DNA of 64,000 nucleotides, taken from positions 1 to 64,000 of the forward strand of contig CAJXRP010000016.1 in assembly GCA_913060495.1 (NCBI GenBank). The letters are read 5' to 3'. Positions 38,189-46,025 of the stretch are shown here, piece after piece. A program made the translations under genes and the position numbers. The notes below the pieces were generated by a model, which worked only from the letters and a program-made list of their open reading frames with translations, had not been told where the DNA came from and did not search any database. The stretch is from an uncultured Gammaproteobacteria bacterium. GTDB lineage: Bacteria > Pseudomonadota > Gammaproteobacteria > Pseudomonadales > Pseudohongiellaceae. Every line of letters begins with the position of its first letter. Position 1 is the first letter of the stretch.

Positions 38189-38267
38189 TTTAAGGGCTAT
38201 GTACAGAAATTATGCAAAACAAGATGTCTTTAGCAATGAGGTGGGGCTAACTGTTAGACTTGCCTCT

Positions 38268-38873
38268 ATGAATACCTCCACTACAAGCTTAGACACCGAA
38301 GAGGCTGAAGACTCAGCCGTCTCTGATGAATCCCTGTTAATAGCAGTTGGAAATACTCAGGATATTAACGCCTTCAATCAATTGTTCGAGCGCTTCTCGA
38401 AGAAGATCTTCGCGTTGGGCATGAAGCTCACACGCAACGAGCAGTTAGCCAACGACCTTATTCAAGAAGCCATGTTGAATGTTTGGCAGAAAGCACCGTT
38501 GTATGACCTAGATAAGGGGTCGGCAAAGGGCTGGATATTCACGCTGAGTCGCAACCGCTGTTTCGATATGTTGCGTAAGCAGAAACGTCAACCAAGCACT
38601 ATCAGTGCTGACGATATTTGGCCGCTCGAGTCTGGGGCTGAACCTGCCTCGGTTCATGATGATATGGCAGGGCAGCAAGTTGAGTTAAGTCTGATTGAGG
38701 GCTATTTCGATCAGCTCTCTGATCCACAGCGAGCTGTGGTTGAACAAATATATATTAAAGATCGCACACATGAAGAAGCGGCCGCTTATCTACAGATTCC
38801 TCTAGGAACTCTGAAATCGCGTCTGCGCCTTGGTGTGGCGAAACTCCGAAATTTGATTGGCGTCGACCAGTAA
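38268..38873 (+). CDS. ECF-family RNA polymerase sigma factor, ChrR-linked
   Basis: From ATG 38268 the protein has 201 residues; a 224-residue frame opens at 38199, but the ECF promoter would start transcription only a few bases before that. Sigma region 2 is visible (AFNQLFERFSKKIFALGMKLT, NDLIQEAMLNVWQKAPLYD, GWIFTLSRNRCFDMLRKQKRQ) and sigma region 4 (DPQRAVVEQIYIKDRTHEEAAAYLQIPLGTLKSRLR), with a charged linker. The WQKAxLYD...WIFTLSRNR pattern is that of the RpoE-ChrR singlet-oxygen group. It would be held inactive by the product of the next gene, which overlaps it only in non-coding extension. Ribosome-binding site weak. Confidence 0.85.
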   Translation: MNTSTTSLDTEEAEDSAVSDESLLIAVGNTQDINAFNQLFERFSKKIFALGMKLTRNEQLANDLIQEAMLNVWQKAPLYDLDKGSAKGWIFTLSRNRCFDMLRKQKRQPSTISADDIWPLESGAEPASVHDDMAGQQVELSLIEGYFDQLSDPQRAVVEQIYIKDRTHEEAAAYLQIPLGTLKSRLRLGVAKLRNLIGVDQ

Positions 38874-38958
38874 AAATAACCCTGTAGTGTCTATTGAGAC
38901 AGTGCTTGTTACTGAGTTCACGAAAAATTGTAAAAGAAATTTGAGAAAGAGGAATGCA

Positions 38959-39666
38959 ATGAATACCGAAGTAAAACTGCACCCATCCACTGAATTGCTG
39001 AACCAGTTCATTCAAGGCGAACTGGTTACAGGAAAGAGCGTAGTCGTATCCGCGCATATGGAGCTGTGCAAATCATGCCGCGCCAAAGCTGAAGAACTGC
39101 AGGCTCATGCGGTTTCCTCATGGGTTGATCCTGGTAGCGCATTGCAATCTGATCAGCCTAGCGAAGTTGACTATTCGAGCATGCTTGCGAGTATCGTAAA
39201 GTCACCACAAATAAAGTCTGAGCCGATTGAAGAATTGGTTGAGATTGACATCGATGTGCTAAACCACAGCATTAAGTTACCTAAGGTTCTAGCCAAGGCT
39301 GCATCCGAAGGTCTGCAATGGAAGAAGGTTGCCGGTGGAATTAGTGAGGCACATCTGTTCCTGGACAATGAGACTCTTTGTGAATTTATTTACATGGCCC
39401 CTGGATGCCAGGTGCCTGTGCATACCCATCAGGGTAGTGAATCAACTCTGGTATTGGATGGTAGCTTTGAAGATGAGTTAGGCGAATACAAGGCTTCAGA
39501 TTTCATTATTCGAGACGGACAGCACAATCATCAGCCGCGCTCTAAAGAAGGTTGTCTCTGTTTTGCCGTGTTGGACAGCCCATTGAAATTCACAGAGGGC
39601 TTGGCCAGATTGATGAATCCTATTAATAGCTACAAATTCAAGAAGGCGACTTCTAGATTAGCTTAG
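38959..39666 (+). CDS. chrR: ChrR-type zinc-binding anti-sigma factor with cupin domain
   Basis: The ATG at 38959 has GAGGA 5 nt upstream and gives 235 residues. Anti-sigma zinc ligands H8, H33, C37 and C40 are spaced exactly like H6, H31, C35 and C38 of Rhodobacter ChrR. A linker (about 50-95) leads to a cupin domain with H155, H157 and E161 (PVHTHQGSES) and a histidine near 189-191, the second metal site. In Rhodobacter ChrR releases sigma-E on singlet oxygen or organic hydroperoxide stress. The same logic is inferred here. It is cytoplasmic: no signal or membrane segment. Confidence 0.88.
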   Translation: MNTEVKLHPSTELLNQFIQGELVTGKSVVVSAHMELCKSCRAKAEELQAHAVSSWVDPGSALQSDQPSEVDYSSMLASIVKSPQIKSEPIEELVEIDIDVLNHSIKLPKVLAKAASEGLQWKKVAGGISEAHLFLDNETLCEFIYMAPGCQVPVHTHQGSESTLVLDGSFEDELGEYKASDFIIRDGQHNHQPRSKEGCLCFAVLDSPLKFTEGLARLMNPINSYKFKKATSRLA

Positions 39667-39678
39667 CACCACTTCCTT

Positions 39679-40353
39679 TTAGGCTTGAGATTTGCGCTGC
39701 GCATCGATATTCATAGCGATAGAGATGCGCTCTCGCTTTCCAGTATAAGGCCTTACTCCGTGGCGTAACCACGCCGGAAAAACCACTAGATTGCCCCGCG
39801 CGAGTTGCAGCTCCACCTCGTAATGTTGGGGCTGGCCATCGATTCCCATCATGCGAACCGCCGGGTTATGCATAGCCGCCATGGGAAACCTAGGATCCTC
39901 GAGGTAGAAGGCCCCACCGACATCTTCGGAACAGTCTGTTTCATCTCCCATATCCAGATAGAGCACCGCCGCCCAAAGGTTCCCAGGATGGGCATGCATG
40001 TGATTCAAGCCTCCAGCGGAGCTTATGTTAGCCCACATGCGTAGCTGCCATTGGTAACTATCCGGGCTTGCTTCCTGAAAATGAGTCATGCGTTTGGCGA
40101 CATTGATCGCAGCTTCTGCGAGCTTGTTTGCTGCATCGCCTCCCCACTGCAGCATATCGGTGTCCGAATGCCAGCCGCCGAAGTTTGAACGTTTCAGACC
40201 TGAGTTTTGTTGCTGGTTCTTCCGAACACTCTTTTCCAATTCCTGCATCAGAGAATCGCCGTCCTTTAATCGGCAATACGCTATCGGAGTCTCGAAAAAG
40301 CCGACCTGTTGGGCTTCAATTCGAAGAGGGACTTGCTGTAGGGGATTCGTCAT
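39679..40353 (-). CDS. Putative 2-oxoglutarate/Fe(II) oxygenase (TIGR02466 type)
   Basis: The 224-residue protein has a double-stranded beta-helix core: NHMHAHPGNLWAAVLYLD supplies the first metal histidines (H118/H120/H122 region) and VVFPAWLRHGVRPYTG...RISIAMN supplies H198 and the C-terminal arginine for the co-substrate. This fits the small TIGR02466 family of predicted Fe/2OG dioxygenases. Substrate unknown. It converges on chrR with a 12-bp gap and diverges from the Pho-controlled gene on the right. Confidence 0.75.
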   Translation of the reverse strand: MTNPLQQVPLRIEAQQVGFFETPIAYCRLKDGDSLMQELEKSVRKNQQQNSGLKRSNFGGWHSDTDMLQWGGDAANKLAEAAINVAKRMTHFQEASPDSYQWQLRMWANISSAGGLNHMHAHPGNLWAAVLYLDMGDETDCSEDVGGAFYLEDPRFPMAAMHNPAVRMMGIDGQPQHYEVELQLARGNLVVFPAWLRHGVRPYTGKRERISIAMNIDAQRKSQA

Positions 40354-40461: not shown

Positions 40462-40517
40462 CTGTAAAAAAACTGCAATCAAATCGTCGCATAACTGCAA
40501 CATGGCAGTTCTATCAT
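40462..40517 (+). promoter_or_regulatory. PhoB-box array and -10 upstream of the beta-helix gene
   Basis: Seven-base half-sites recur every 11 bp: CTGTAAA (40462), CTGCAAT (40473), a degenerate TCGTCGC (40484) and CTGCAAC (40495), separated by A/T-rich tetranucleotides (AAAA, CAAA, ATAA). The PhoB consensus is CTGTCAT-N4-CTGTCAT. A -10-like TATCAT (40512-40517) follows exactly 10 bp after the last half-site, the spacing of PhoB-activated promoters. No good -35 is present. Confidence 0.72.
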
Positions 40518-40573: not shown

Positions 40574-42334
40574 ATGAAATTTAAGCGCACGAAAATGAAT
40601 GCTATTGCCAGCGGTGTTGCTCTAGGACTTGCGGCGATGAGTGCACAGGCCGCAGATCAACCAACTTTAACAACGGCAGGCGCCCAGAGTAGCGCGGTTT
40701 TCACAGGAGGAGCGACGATCAATGGTGGCGCCAGTTTTCTTGCGGCCGTTCCAGCTGACTCCGCAGTAGACTTGTTGGTAACTATCAAGCCGGCGGCAGC
40801 GGATGTGGGTAAGGCTGGTAACTTGGTAGTTATTATTAATGTGCCCGGCGCGGGATTCTTCATTCAGGATTCTTCAGGTGCTTTCGCGCCGTGGACGCAA
40901 GCTGACCCAATCGTTGCCGCTAGCTCTAAGACGCTTTCGGCTTCTGAGCCACTTACTATTTTCTCTGGCCTGGTTGGTAGCGCAGTTGGTGCGACAGGCG
41001 TCGACGTACAGGCCTTCGTAGGCTACTACACTGACTCGATTGCAAACCTGACGTATTCATCGACCCCTGCGAGTTTCTCAATCGCGGCGCCAGCGTCTTC
41101 GAGTTGTCCTGCAAACACCACTGCGATCTCCGGTACGTTCAAAGACAAAGCAGTCTGCTCGCTAAGTGGCAGAATCGAATCCGATACACATCTGACCTCC
41201 AACTTCTCCTATATTTTGGACGGTGCCGTATTCATCGGAGCGGACGAGGTGAGTGGTTCTAAGACTAAGCTAGTAATAGATGAAGGCACTTACGTCTTTG
41301 GTCAGCAAGGATTAAATTTTCTGACTATTGCGCGTAACGGGCAACTGCATGCGAACGGCAGTGCGAGTAAGCCGGTGATCTTCACCTACGAGGGTGACGA
41401 TACCGCGACCGCTACTACAAGTGGGCAATGGGGCGGCATTATCCTGAACGGCAACGCGCCTCTGAACGTGGGCGGCGGAACAGCCGAGGGTGAGGGCTCA
41501 ACTGGACTGTACGGTGGTTCCAATTCTGCTGATAGCAGCGGTGTACTGACCTACGTACAGGTTAAATATGCAGGACAGAATATTACTGAAGACAATGAGC
41601 TGAATGGCATCGCGTTTCAGGGTACGGGTTCCGGTACCCTCGTTGACTATGTGCAGGTTCACAACAATTCTGACGATGGCATCGAATTCTTCGGCGGCAC
41701 TACGAATGCGAAACATATCGTCTTGACTGGCAATGAAGATGACGCGCTTGATTGGACCTTCGGTTGGACTGGCAAGGCGCAATTCATTGCCATTAAACAA
41801 AACACTGCCAGTGAGCATTGTATCGAAGCAGACAACAATGGTGATAATAACGACGCGCTACCACGCTCGAATCCCACGATCTCTAACCTGACTTGTGCGG
41901 GTGCGAGCAGTGGTGGCGATGCAGGATTTAGATTGCGTGAAGGTACATCCGCGAAGATATCAAATGTAGTTATGTCTGCGCACAATGCCTATTGTCTCGA
42001 CATCGACCAGACAGCAACGTTCGCCAATGCCGGCGGCTCAATTGCTGCTCTGAACGGTAACCTGACTCTGACGAACTCACGTTTAGTCACCGGTTGTCCG
42101 TTTAGCGCTAGTGATGGAGATACCTTTTCGGTGGCGGAATTCTTCACGGCGCAAGCTGGAAGCTCCTTGGGCGAGGTCGATCTGATGGGTTCTAGCGGAT
42201 GGATGAACGGACCGATCTTAAACGCGATAAGCCCTTCGATTCCCACAGACTCTTTCTTCGACCAAGTCGACTACATCGGCGCGGTGAAAGATAGCAGCTC
42301 TGATTGGACGGCAGGCTGGACTTATTCTGACTAG
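40574..42334 (+). CDS. Secreted parallel-beta-helix protein, Pho-controlled, partner of a TonB receptor
   Basis: The 586-residue protein has a signal peptide cleaved after AQA (about residue 26), a beta-rich N-terminal domain (about 30-170), a short Cys-containing junction (SSSCPANTT, KAVCSLSG) and a long right-handed beta-helix (about 185-550). It shows VIDEGTYVFG, FLTIARNGQLHANGSASKP, GQWGGIILNGNAPLN, GVLTYVQVKYAG, GSGTLVDYVQVHNNSDDGIEFFGGT and DDALDWTFGWTGKAQF. These repeats match proteins found beside TonB receptors in marine bacteria and Bacteroidetes; I know no assigned function. An AGGAG-like GAAGGAG precedes the ATG. The PhoB boxes suggest a role in phosphorus acquisition, for example binding or processing a phosphorus compound at the cell surface. 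Confidence 0.75.
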   Translation: MKFKRTKMNAIASGVALGLAAMSAQAADQPTLTTAGAQSSAVFTGGATINGGASFLAAVPADSAVDLLVTIKPAAADVGKAGNLVVIINVPGAGFFIQDSSGAFAPWTQADPIVAASSKTLSASEPLTIFSGLVGSAVGATGVDVQAFVGYYTDSIANLTYSSTPASFSIAAPASSSCPANTTAISGTFKDKAVCSLSGRIESDTHLTSNFSYILDGAVFIGADEVSGSKTKLVIDEGTYVFGQQGLNFLTIARNGQLHANGSASKPVIFTYEGDDTATATTSGQWGGIILNGNAPLNVGGGTAEGEGSTGLYGGSNSADSSGVLTYVQVKYAGQNITEDNELNGIAFQGTGSGTLVDYVQVHNNSDDGIEFFGGTTNAKHIVLTGNEDDALDWTFGWTGKAQFIAIKQNTASEHCIEADNNGDNNDALPRSNPTISNLTCAGASSGGDAGFRLREGTSAKISNVVMSAHNAYCLDIDQTATFANAGGSIAALNGNLTLTNSRLVTGCPFSASDGDTFSVAEFFTAQAGSSLGEVDLMGSSGWMNGPILNAISPSIPTDSFFDQVDYIGAVKDSSSDWTAGWTYSD

Positions 42335-42499: not shown

Positions 42500-42555
42500 T
42501 TGAAATATTTCTGCAATGTAACTGAAATATCACTGTCACAGAGTCGCAATAAACT
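42500..42555 (+). promoter_or_regulatory. PhoB-box array and -10 upstream of the TonB receptor
   Basis: Four consecutive half-sites at exact 11-bp steps: TTGAAAT (42500), CTGCAAT (42511), CTGAAAT (42522) and CTGTCAC (42533), with spacers ATTT, GTAA and ATCA. The last pair, CTGAAAT-ATCA-CTGTCAC, is the best Pho box in the window. A -10-like TAAACT (42550-42555) follows after exactly 10 bp. The receptor start is 38 bp further on. Confidence 0.82.
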
Positions 42556-42593: not shown

Positions 42594-45119
42594 ATGACCA
42601 ATCAAAGGGCGCCACTAAAACTCCTGACTATCGCCATTACTTCAGCGCTCAGTGCTGCGGCTATGGGGCAGGATGCGCCTCAGATCGAGGAGATCGCTGT
42701 TATTGGTCAGTTTGTTCCCGATGAAAAGCGTGCTACATCTTCGGTCTCTAATGTCGTCGGCTCCGAGCAGTTTCAGCGCTCTGGTGATACCAATATCGCA
42801 GAAGGGCTAAAACGCGTCTCTGGGCTGAGTACAGTAGGTGGCAAGTTCGTCTATGTGCGTGGCCTTGGCGAGCGCTATTCGACCACTCTTCTTAATGGAG
42901 CAATTCTACCGAGCCCTGAACCGATTAACCGCGTTGTTCCTCTCGATTTATTCCCGACAGCGATACTCGACAGCGTGTTAGTGCAGAAAACCTATTCCGC
43001 ACAATTTCCCAGCGAATTCGGTGGTGGTGTGTTGCAGTTGCGTACCAAGAAGTCGACTGACGAATTTTTCTGGAACATGTCTTCGTCGGCAGGCCTACAG
43101 CAAGGTGTGAACTTCAATGATGGTTTCACCTCATCTGGCGGCAGCAAGTCTTGGCTGGGCTATGACGATGACTACCGAGGTTTACCAGATACGCTCAAGC
43201 AGGCGACCGCAAACGGACAGGAGCTGCGCAGAGAGAGCCAGTTTTTAGGTAGCGGTGGCTATTCTCCAGAGGAGCTGCAAATTATTGGTCGCAGCATACG
43301 AAACGATTACAGCGCGGATTCAGAGTCTCTGCCCGCCAATTTCAAATTCGCCACATCATTCGGCAATTATCATGAACTTAATAACAAGGGTGCACGGGTA
43401 AATTACCTGGCTGCCATCAACTATTCAAATTCATGGGATACGAACGAGATTGAGCGCAACAACTACCGAACAAGTAACGCGGGGCTGGAAATAGGAGACG
43501 ATCTAGACTTCGTGGGCACCGAGCATAGCGTGGACATAAGCAGTATCTTCACCGCCGGCATAGACTTCAACGACAATCACAATATTCGGACTACCAGCGT
43601 AGTGCTACGTAAGACCGACGACACCGTCTCACAAACTAGTGGTAATCTCGCAGAGGAAGACTTTATTCGATTGACGCAGCTGGAATGGGTTGAACGTGAG
43701 TTGTTTTCCAACCAAGTGCAAGGGGATCACTATTATCCTGACTTTAATGAGCTAGTCGTAAACTGGCGTTATAGCAAGGTGAAGGCTGAGCGCGACGCAC
43801 CGGACGATAGGGTGTACCGCTATGATCAAGAATCCGATGGCAATTTCAGATTCTCTACTCGTGCCGATGGCAATGTAAGACGCTTCAGTGTGTTGGACGA
43901 TGATGCCGAAGACTTCGCTGTTGATCTAGCCATGGTTTTCTACGGGCCGATGGATTCTATAATCACTACCAAGGCGGGCTACGTTCACAATGAGAAGCAG
44001 CGCGAATCAGAAGTGCGTCGCTACTCTTTCTTCGATCAGGGCAGTCTCGCATTCAATGAAGACTTATTGACGTTGCCACTGGAAGAGATTCTGGCGCCAG
44101 CGAATATCGACCCCGATGGTTTCGAGCTGAGGGAATTTACTCGACCCACTGACAACTACAATGCAACAAATGAATCTGATGCTTTCTATGGCGAAGTCGA
44201 ATTCAACTTCGATGACAGGTTCCGTATTAATCTTGGAGCTCGGCAAGAAGACTTCACTCAGAATGTTAGAACGTTCGATCTGTTTCGAGATGTAGAGGTG
44301 AATGCCGCGCAAGAGAATAAAGATATTCTTCCTGCATTTACGGGCACTTATATCAACGGTGATCATCAGTTTCGAATAGCTTACAGCGAGACCTTGTCAC
44401 GGCCTGACTTTCGTGAGCTGTCACCGGCTGCGTTCACCAATCCAGTTACTGGTAGAGAGGTTGTGGGAAACCCCGACCTGAAGATTGCCAACATAACCAA
44501 CTATGACTTTCGTTGGGAGTGGTATTTCGGCTTCGGCGACTCAATGTCTCTCGGTTTGTTCTACAAGGAATTCGAGAATCCGATCGAATCAGTAGTGCAG
44601 CCTGGTGCGGAAGCAAGGCAGACATTTGCTAATGCCGCGGCGGGTGAGAATGCGGGTGTAGAATTTGAGATATCCAAACGTCTCGGTTTCCTCGGCGATC
44701 GCGGGGAAGACTTCTACGTTCAGACTAATATCGCCTTTATCGATTCCGAAGTAACTATTGCCGAGAAAGACCGCGGCATTCTTACTAGTACATCTCGTGC
44801 ATTACAGGGGCAGTCGGATTGGTTGTTCAATGCTCAGATAGGCTATGAGCCGTTCACGGGCACCACGGCAACACTGCTTTACCACTATTTCGGTGAGCGT
44901 ATCAGCGAGGTGGGCATTGAAGGCGCTCCTGATCTAATTGAGCAGCCTTTCGGTGAGCTAAATACCGTCTTCATGCACGAGTTCACTGAGAGCTGGAGAA
45001 TGACACTCAAGGGCAAGAACCTTCTGGATGAGAAGAGTGAGGTCACGCAGGGCGGCTTCATCACTACCGGGTTTAATCGCGGCAGAGAGCTTAGCCTACA
45101 GGTGGACTATCGCTTCTAG
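42594..45119 (+). CDS. TonB-dependent outer-membrane receptor, Pho-controlled
   Basis: The 841-residue protein has a signal peptide (residues 1-25, AAAMGQ) and a TonB-box region (IEEIAVIGQF). A plug domain (about 45-160) follows with GLSTVGGKFVYVRGLGERYSTT, NGAILPSPEP, LDLFPTAILDSVLVQKTYS and EFGGGVLQLRTKK, and then a 22-strand barrel ending in the aromatic YRF. It would bring a ligand across the outer membrane using TonB-ExbBD energy. The PhoB boxes and the neighbouring phoB point to a phosphorus-containing ligand; the beta-helix protein upstream is the likely partner. Ligand identity is inference. Confidence 0.88.
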   Translation: MTNQRAPLKLLTIAITSALSAAAMGQDAPQIEEIAVIGQFVPDEKRATSSVSNVVGSEQFQRSGDTNIAEGLKRVSGLSTVGGKFVYVRGLGERYSTTLLNGAILPSPEPINRVVPLDLFPTAILDSVLVQKTYSAQFPSEFGGGVLQLRTKKSTDEFFWNMSSSAGLQQGVNFNDGFTSSGGSKSWLGYDDDYRGLPDTLKQATANGQELRRESQFLGSGGYSPEELQIIGRSIRNDYSADSESLPANFKFATSFGNYHELNNKGARVNYLAAINYSNSWDTNEIERNNYRTSNAGLEIGDDLDFVGTEHSVDISSIFTAGIDFNDNHNIRTTSVVLRKTDDTVSQTSGNLAEEDFIRLTQLEWVERELFSNQVQGDHYYPDFNELVVNWRYSKVKAERDAPDDRVYRYDQESDGNFRFSTRADGNVRRFSVLDDDAEDFAVDLAMVFYGPMDSIITTKAGYVHNEKQRESEVRRYSFFDQGSLAFNEDLLTLPLEEILAPANIDPDGFELREFTRPTDNYNATNESDAFYGEVEFNFDDRFRINLGARQEDFTQNVRTFDLFRDVEVNAAQENKDILPAFTGTYINGDHQFRIAYSETLSRPDFRELSPAAFTNPVTGREVVGNPDLKIANITNYDFRWEWYFGFGDSMSLGLFYKEFENPIESVVQPGAEARQTFANAAAGENAGVEFEISKRLGFLGDRGEDFYVQTNIAFIDSEVTIAEKDRGILTSTSRALQGQSDWLFNAQIGYEPFTGTTATLLYHYFGERISEVGIEGAPDLIEQPFGELNTVFMHEFTESWRMTLKGKNLLDEKSEVTQGGFITTGFNRGRELSLQVDYRF

Positions 45120-45314: not shown

Positions 45315-46025
45315 ATGCCCGAATCCACAATATTGATCGTCGATGATGAAGCTGCAATACGCGATATGGTCGGCATTACTCTCGACCTAGCAGGTTTTAG
45401 CAGCATCAGTGCCGCAAATGCCCATGATGCGCACGTATCAATAATCGATAAGAAGCCAGACTTGGTGCTCCTCGATTGGATGTTGCCGGGGGGCAGCGGT
45501 ATCGAATTGGCACGCAGACTGCGTCGCGATGAGATCACCACAAACCTCCCTATTATTATGCTCACGGCGAAAACCAGCGAGGACAATAAGGTGCAGGGCC
45601 TCAGCGAGGGTGTTGATGATTATGTAACGAAGCCTTTCTCCCCGCGGGAGCTGGTCGCACGCATCAAGACTGTGCTGCGCCGCGTGGATGGCAAGCAGAA
45701 GAATAAGGTGCTTCGTGTTTTTGATCTGCAGCTCGACCCCACTAGCCACCGTACCTCCATCGAAGATCAGCCTATAGAAATGGGCCCTACGGAGTTCCGT
45801 CTTCTGAAGTTCTTTCTCTTGAATCAGGAGAAGGTGTTTAGCCGCGATCATATACAAAACGCGGTGTGGGGCGGTAATGTCTATCTGGAAGAGCGGACTA
45901 TCGACGTGCACATCCGTCGGCTGCGCAAGGCTCTATCTTCAATCGAAGGCACCTCAATCGATTACGCCAAATTAGTACAGACTGTGCGCGGGGCGGGCTA
46001 TCGCTTCTCCGTACGTCAGTCTTAG
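45315..46025 (+). CDS. phoB: Phosphate regulon response regulator PhoB
   Basis: The 236-residue protein has a receiver domain (1-120) with acidic residues D10/D11, the phospho-acceptor D54 in LLDWMLPGGSG and TKPFSPRELVARIK. A winged-helix DNA-binding domain (about 130-235) follows with LDPTSHR, MGPTEFRLLKFFL and NVYLEERTIDVHIRRLRKAL. These stretches are nearly the E. coli PhoB sequence, so I call PhoB rather than a general OmpR-family regulator. No phoR kinase follows: the next gene is a TonB receptor after 441 bp. A Pho box in front implies positive autoregulation, and the boxes upstream of the two preceding genes are its likely local targets. Confidence 0.93.
   Translation: MPESTILIVDDEAAIRDMVGITLDLAGFSSISAANAHDAHVSIIDKKPDLVLLDWMLPGGSGIELARRLRRDEITTNLPIIMLTAKTSEDNKVQGLSEGVDDYVTKPFSPRELVARIKTVLRRVDGKQKNKVLRVFDLQLDPTSHRTSIEDQPIEMGPTEFRLLKFFLLNQEKVFSRDHIQNAVWGGNVYLEERTIDVHIRRLRKALSSIEGTSIDYAKLVQTVRGAGYRFSVRQS

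Follow-up and report, generated by a model that had tools for sequence, protein, structure and literature searches.

We propose that the gene at positions 40574 to 42334 of the window (the whole 64,000-nucleotide stretch of DNA analysed here) encodes an ElpS-like protein of the Pho regulon that works outside the cell as the capture partner of the adjacent TonB-dependent receptor for phosphorus compounds, a role to which we give about even credence. The proposal draws on a predicted beta-helix fold, pairing of the helix gene with a receptor gene, Pho-box-like sites in front of both genes, one close PhoB in the genome and an invariant ladder of acidic residues; for ElpS of Caulobacter, phosphate-starvation induction and surface exposure have been demonstrated by others. 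Combined with the receptor, the Pho-type sites and the TonB motors of some loci, the ladder suggests that phosphorus compounds are captured and then imported by a TonB-driven route. In our view, little is understood of how the outer membrane is crossed by phosphorus compounds that do not fit through porins.

The features of the window are as follows.

39679 to 40353, minus strand: 2OG-Fe(II) oxygenase, divergent to the helix gene (PF13759/TIGR02466)
40462 to 40500, plus strand: Pho-box-like array of 11-bp repeats (CTG at 40462, 40473 and 40495), upstream of the helix gene at −112 (motif scan)
40574 to 42334, plus strand: beta-helix protein, ElpS-like family, 586 aa (ORF, orthologs, AlphaFold2 model)
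40574 to 40651, plus strand: signal peptide, aa 1-26, ending ...AQA/A (by-eye reading; AlphaFold2 pLDDT <50 at aa 1-23)
40658 to 41101, plus strand: N-terminal Ig-like beta-sandwich domain, aa 29-176 (model, and matches in five other proteins of the genome)
41105 to 41158, plus strand: two-cysteine junction, C178...C195 (AlphaFold2 model)
41120 to 42283, plus strand: right-handed beta-helix, aa ~183-570 (AlphaFold2 model, VIA-align)
41672 to 41752, plus strand: acidic ladder on consecutive coils, DDxxE (aa 367/368/371) and DDxxD (aa 389/390/393) (alignment and AlphaFold2 strand register)
42500 to 42538, plus strand: four 11-bp Pho-box-like repeats (42500, 42511, 42522 and 42533), upstream of the receptor gene (motif scan)
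42594 to 45119, plus strand: TonB-dependent receptor, 841 aa, directly downstream of the helix gene (PF07715 and PF00593)
45315 to 46025, plus strand: PhoB response regulator, downstream of the receptor (TIGR02154, above cutoff)

The helix protein and its acidic ladder

The helix protein is real and conserved. The open reading frame put forward in a preliminary description of the window has a near-full-length ortholog in 29 of 48 other genomes of the same genus, and one more genome has a match in two pieces. The protein opens with a Sec-type signal peptide (read by eye), and its AlphaFold2 model, built from 51 sequences (mean pLDDT 92.3, pTM 0.91), contains the N-terminal beta domain, the two-cysteine junction and the right-handed beta-helix that had been claimed. 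The two motifs quoted in that description lie at residues 284 to 295 (GQWGGIILNGNA) and 367 to 376 (DDGIEFFGGT). They had been called repeated, but WGG and DDG each occur only once in the protein, and the motifs are family signatures, not internal repeats.

Fold comparison, which the same description had suggested, places the right-handed helix in the pectin-lyase fold. The best 50 rows of VIA-align (Z 17.6 to 22.3) are mostly pectin-lyase-fold chains, with NosD, tailspikes, alginate epimerases, polygalacturonases and pectate lyases as neighbors (best Z, 22.3). Foldseek by itself yielded just four weak matches at E ≤ 0.001, all to GH87. Because VIA-align gives a generic pectin-lyase fold and Foldseek is weak, we left the enzyme family unassigned. 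Phytases and phosphodiesterases are absent as relatives among the 50 best rows of either fold search with the full model, which is no proof against them. At the sequence level, Pfam and NCBIfam give no match for the helix protein up to E 1, and among the 51 relatives no Pfam family recurs beyond two members: a methyltransferase family (two relatives, E 0.0085) was dismissed as irrelevant, and PF12708 (E 0.014) and PF13229 (E 0.042) are matched once each. A sequence search of the PDB returned nothing meaningful (best match GlmU, E 0.015), and viral contigs scanned with the helix protein yielded four pattern matches and no relative.

Six acidic residues of the helix (D367, D368, E371, D389, D390 and D393) are invariant in 51 aligned rows, and the strand register of the model puts them at the same place on consecutive coils. 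The same six are invariant in all 61 further helix domains, tandem copies included, that were taken from 40 survey loci and had no part in defining the ladder pattern. E307 and D320 are conserved in 60 of these 61 domains and E342 in 59, while E418 (56/60) and D420 (44/61), invariant in the first alignment, are variable in the survey domains. As modeled, the ladder would be fit for metal ions or a ligand, or for catalysis.

The helix domain is present in 51 of 398 sampled genomes of the phylum (E ≤ 1e−10), many of which encode two tandem helices per protein. For the survey loci, 39 of these 51 genomes were drawn on (the 12 left out include the window's own, and L118 and L119 share one genome). 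A scan of named genomes yielded 48 loci, which include Alphaproteobacteria, Deltaproteobacteria, Acidobacteria, Bacteroidales, Saprospiraceae, Crocinitomicaceae, Pseudoalteromonas and Pseudoxanthomonas. Two Pseudoalteromonas proteins of 1366 aa (L057 and L082) carry three helix copies, as judged by WGG motifs. In 15 of the 21 plasmid records found, the gene is labeled "hypothetical protein." The close loci L036 to L051 overlap partly in genomes with L007 to L035, and L081, which has no helix ORF, was excluded from locus counts. ORFs were called by our own script, which is unreliable in GC-rich loci. Neighbors were labeled by blastp to 23 reference proteins, and a locus "without phosphate label" is one with no match to the PhoB, PhoR, PhoU or Pst references.

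The N-terminal beta-sandwich also matches five other proteins of the genome (L002 to L006): two metalloproteases (M10 and M12), two DUF1592-type proteins (one of which falls short of the Pfam cutoff) and one MauG/CCP protein. No Pfam match falls on the domain in the helix protein or in these carriers. Predicted alone (pLDDT 94.7), it weakly resembles Ig-like adhesin repeats and Wzt sugar-binding domains (best VIA-align Z, 8.4), and Foldseek gives no match at E ≤ 0.001. A regular-expression search detected no lipobox in the window's protein or at the N-terminus in the 16 close loci (a match in L047 sits before the true start and was rejected). Matches to the same expression occur in 25 of the 31 distant loci and in 38 of the 40 from the survey, with ORF starts uncertain; the match in L127, at residue 136, is not a signal. 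We infer that in the window's clade the mobile beta-sandwich replaces the lipid anchor. The helix proteins of L118, L119 and L127 have no lipobox near the N-terminus, and their N-terminal stretches are unlike that of the window's protein; in these proteins the lipid anchor may have been replaced in parallel.

Receptor pairing and predicted phosphate control

As the preliminary description had held, the helix gene is paired with a receptor gene. Of 87 gene neighborhoods counted, 80 have a receptor gene immediately beside the helix gene and on its strand: 15 of the 16 close loci, 26 of the 31 distant ones and 39 of the 40 from the survey. Three of the seven exceptions are cut by a contig end (L045, L080 and L055), and in three others (L053, L054 and L059) the receptor ends a run of helix, TtpC, ExbB/D, TonB and receptor genes. 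The only true receptor-less locus is L118, in which PhoD lies 1.7 kb downstream with one ORF between. Given that the 3.6-Mb genome of the window has 28 TonB-dependent receptor matches, the pairing is not due to chance. The receptor itself has no second relative in the genome at E ≤ 1e−10, and it scores 233.5 bits against TIGR01782 (TonB-Xanth-Caul), below the curated cutoff of 310. Nine of the 40 survey loci and nine of the 31 distant loci have, close to the pair, at least three parts of a TonB motor (DUF3450-TtpC-ExbB-ExbD-TonB-TPR); the window's own pair has no such motor beside it. In L126, the gene order is PhoB, PhoR, PstS-like, oxygenase, helix, receptor, DUF3450, TtpC, ExbB, ExbD, TonB and TPR.

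The PhoB encoded downstream of the receptor is the genome's sole close match (510.8 bits versus 114.4 for the next protein, which is 33% identical); phoR, phoU and the pst genes are on another contig of the same genome. Among the 16 close loci, PhoB comes next in 13, and PhoR with PhoU/Pst is present in 3. Outside the close loci, PhoB, PhoR, PhoU or Pst labels occur near the pair in 7 of 40 survey loci and 1 of 31 distant loci.

All 34 close regions have a Pho-box-like motif in the 200 bp ahead of the helix gene, where shuffled sequences would give 0.4. The loci behind this count are related and not independent events, the regular expression was drawn after inspection of upstream regions, and the shuffles preserve base composition alone. 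Identical upstream regions and those shorter than 150 bp were dropped, as was L013, which has too little upstream DNA. The motif lies at −98 to −144 in 32 of the 34 regions; L027 has it solely at −157, where it reads better on the opposite strand, and L028 solely at −185. Similar arrays precede the receptor gene in 15 of 17 loci (0.2 expected). Across both strands of the whole window, the relaxed motif occurs eight times, four of them before the helix or receptor gene, and all three occurrences of the strict motif in the 64 kb are before one of these genes. Elsewhere in the genome, the motif stands 89 bp before a PstS-like gene (PF12849). When upstream regions were instead scored by the Escherichia coli consensus, several loci were no better than shuffles (up to 46 of 100 as good).

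Sixteen of the 40 survey loci have a canonical TGTCA-type site ahead of the helix gene, versus 15 of 464 control ORFs. It is rare at the close helix genes (1/16, versus 5/99 control ORFs), because their second half-site reads TGCAA, and in distant loci (2/30; controls, 1/391 ORFs). These counts led us to reject a universal Pho box across the family. The phosphate control that the preliminary description had assumed is thus borne out in silico by the arrays within the genus and by the canonical sites outside it, and in the window's clade control of the helix gene by phosphate, as read from promoter DNA, is well supported. As a trait of the whole family it has partial support: the distant loci rarely have the site, and the 14 Bacteroidales loci lack phosphate labels. 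Consistent placement beside non-phosphate genes without Pho boxes, the outcome named beforehand as fatal to a phosphate role, was not observed, and the Bacteroidales loci come nearest to it.

The oxygenase gene divergent to the helix gene is present in 14 of 16 close loci, and the other two are cut by contig ends. Pho-type sites face the oxygenase in 9 of 27 such regions (0.1 expected), and the window itself has none; in some relatives, the oxygenase may be a further member of the Pho module. PF13640 oxygenases adjoin the helix gene in L120 and L126. Just upstream, at 38199 to 39666, is a pair of genes for an ECF sigma factor and a ChrR-like cupin, which is kept in many close loci.

Capture or another role

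Under the proposed mechanism, phosphate starvation would lead PhoB, presumably by binding the upstream arrays, to activate the helix and receptor genes. The helix protein would be exported by Sec via its signal peptide and, like ElpS, would come to lie outside the outer membrane. Its acidic ladder would bind a phosphorus-containing ligand, probably via a metal ion, and hand it to the receptor for TonB-driven import, and periplasmic and secreted phosphatases and the Pst system would handle the remaining steps.

Several observations count against capture. In Caulobacter, deletion of elpS was reported to leave phosphatase activity unchanged, the CC_0171 receptor was reported to be constitutively expressed, and ElpS is shed into the medium (PMC2996285). 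The Flavobacterium relative FI makes up 18.7% of the low-phosphate exoproteome (PMC8115612), which exceeds the needs of a stoichiometric lid on a receptor. None of the survey loci linked to a type II secretion system (T2SS), nor any of the 14 Bacteroidales loci, carries a PhoB, PhoR, PhoU or Pst label, and a copy on a Marinobacter plasmid has no annotated receptor adjoining, in a gene table that is incomplete.

Some of these observations would suit the main rival, a secreted pectin-lyase-fold enzyme in which DDxxE and DDxxD are catalytic and cut a phosphorus-rich or phosphate-decorated polymer, the pieces being imported by the receptor. The fold is common to polygalacturonases, lyases and epimerases, six invariant acidic residues on adjacent coils could form an active site, and both the abundance of FI (PMC8115612) and the release of ElpS (PMC2996285) are in keeping with an enzyme, as is the finding that 16 of the 40 survey loci have T2SS genes close to the pair (2 of 31 distant loci also have them). 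None of the window's 59 ORFs matches the GspC-G references, and no T2SS was found in the 16 close loci. The lack of an enzyme family in Pfam or NCBIfam up to E 1, and of any recurring among the 51 relatives, argues against this rival, for which no activity is known; purified ElpS was reported not to be an alkaline phosphatase (PMC2996285). We consider such an enzyme unlikely, though not strongly so. We favor capture over catalysis on two grounds, a receptor link that is nearly universal and the absence of a match to any enzyme family, with the enzyme reading close behind.

The protein could instead activate or stabilize a secreted phosphatase, as was proposed for ElpS, in which case its link to the receptor would be indirect. 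Overproduced ElpS raises secreted phosphatase activity (PMC2996285), PhoD neighbors the receptor-less L118, and the window's genome encodes PhoD and PhoX-like proteins. The link to the receptor is nevertheless consistent, and the 25 most frequent of 99 Pfam families in the neighborhoods include no phosphatase (19 loci, from which 83 ORFs were picked and 78 scanned), making this role improbable. We give equally little credence to a general binder of glycans or surface matrix that serves many substrates, with phosphate control specific to certain lineages and saying little about the ligand: the structural neighbors mostly act on glycans and the Bacteroidales loci lack phosphate labels, the pair following a gene for a NamZ exo-muramidase in the sampled loci L062 and L068 (in L068, a serpin gene precedes too), but phosphate links recur in unrelated groups (Pseudohongiella-like and other Gammaproteobacteria, with weaker matches in L053 and L060) and agree with the published Caulobacter and Flavobacterium data.

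If capture is the correct reading, the family would tentatively represent an additional kind of TonB importer built of two parts, with a right-handed beta-helix as the extracellular partner where other importers have SusD, BtuG or TbpB. Such importers would be dedicated to phosphorus compounds in several phyla, sometimes with their own TonB motor or T2SS, the lipid anchor being swapped for a mobile beta-sandwich in the window's lineage. No Pfam model recurs in the family. Its published relative FI dominates a low-phosphate exoproteome (PMC8115612). Now that the family, its receptor and its Pho-type promoter sites are described, together with precise residues for mutagenesis, the 2010 observation on ElpS becomes a testable uptake system.

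Comparison with known systems

The family is already named in print, as ElpS, with few papers and no database model. The preliminary description rightly noted similar proteins next to receptors (ElpS, FI and FII are published), but its statement that they have no assigned function was too strong, as there are phosphate-starvation data for ElpS (PMC2996285) and for FI, FII and FIII (PMC8115612). Beyond the papers cited here, the matches listed by a literature search, with most subscription journals outside it, include no later work on the structure or function of ElpS. A 2024 review of TonB-dependent uptake discusses SusD and, in the available portion of its text, mentions neither ElpS nor BtuG (PMC11658791).

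ElpS (CC_0170) is a Caulobacter surface lipoprotein made under phosphate starvation and released into the medium in a T2SS- and protease-dependent manner, and homologs were named in Xanthomonas, Shewanella and Bacteroides (PMC2996285). The PhoB regulon of C. crescentus was reported to include the T2SS and several TonB-dependent receptors (PMC11208175). The published gene order, elpS (cc0170), cc0171 and gspC onward (PMC2996285), has a counterpart in L139, L115 and L052, where helix, receptor, GspC, GspD, GspE and GspF follow one another (Pfam confirms the T2SS for L052 and partly for L139). Synteny and shared features appear to tie the window's protein to ElpS. Both have an adjacent TonB receptor, and the starvation control of ElpS is paralleled in silico by the Pho-box-like arrays. 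They differ in that ElpS carries a lipobox and is encoded beside T2SS genes, whereas the window's protein has the beta-sandwich instead of a lipobox and is encoded near PhoB.

The Flavobacterium johnsoniae lipoproteins FI, FII and FIII (Fjoh_3856, Fjoh_0546 and Fjoh_4889), which we compared by description, share 31 to 36% identity with the Caulobacter lipoprotein at 50 to 54% coverage and were modeled by their authors on a polygalacturonase (PMC8115612). Low phosphate strongly induces all three; two of them, FI and FII, adjoin TonB-dependent receptors induced by low Pi, FII within the phoBR operon (PMC8115612). In FII, the receptor precedes the helix gene; in the window, a helix gene without lipobox comes first.

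GH28, PL1, PL6 and the alginate epimerases share the predicted right-handed parallel beta-helix but not a sequence-level family match (up to E 1). The SusCD and PusCD systems likewise combine a receptor with a co-regulated extracellular partner, under phosphate control for PusCD (PMC8115612), but the partner there is a SusD protein (PF07980/PF14322), while that in the window is a beta-helix with no such Pfam match up to E 1. Finally, the motor near some helix-receptor pairs matches the parts of Vibrio TonB2 (TtpB2-TtpC2-ExbB2-ExbD2-TonB2-TtpD2), of which TtpB2, a DUF3450 protein, and TtpD2, a TPR protein, are essential for the V. vulnificus TonB2 system (PMC6957404). Vibrio TonB2 was described for iron uptake, whereas the motor near helix loci is sometimes linked to PhoBR.
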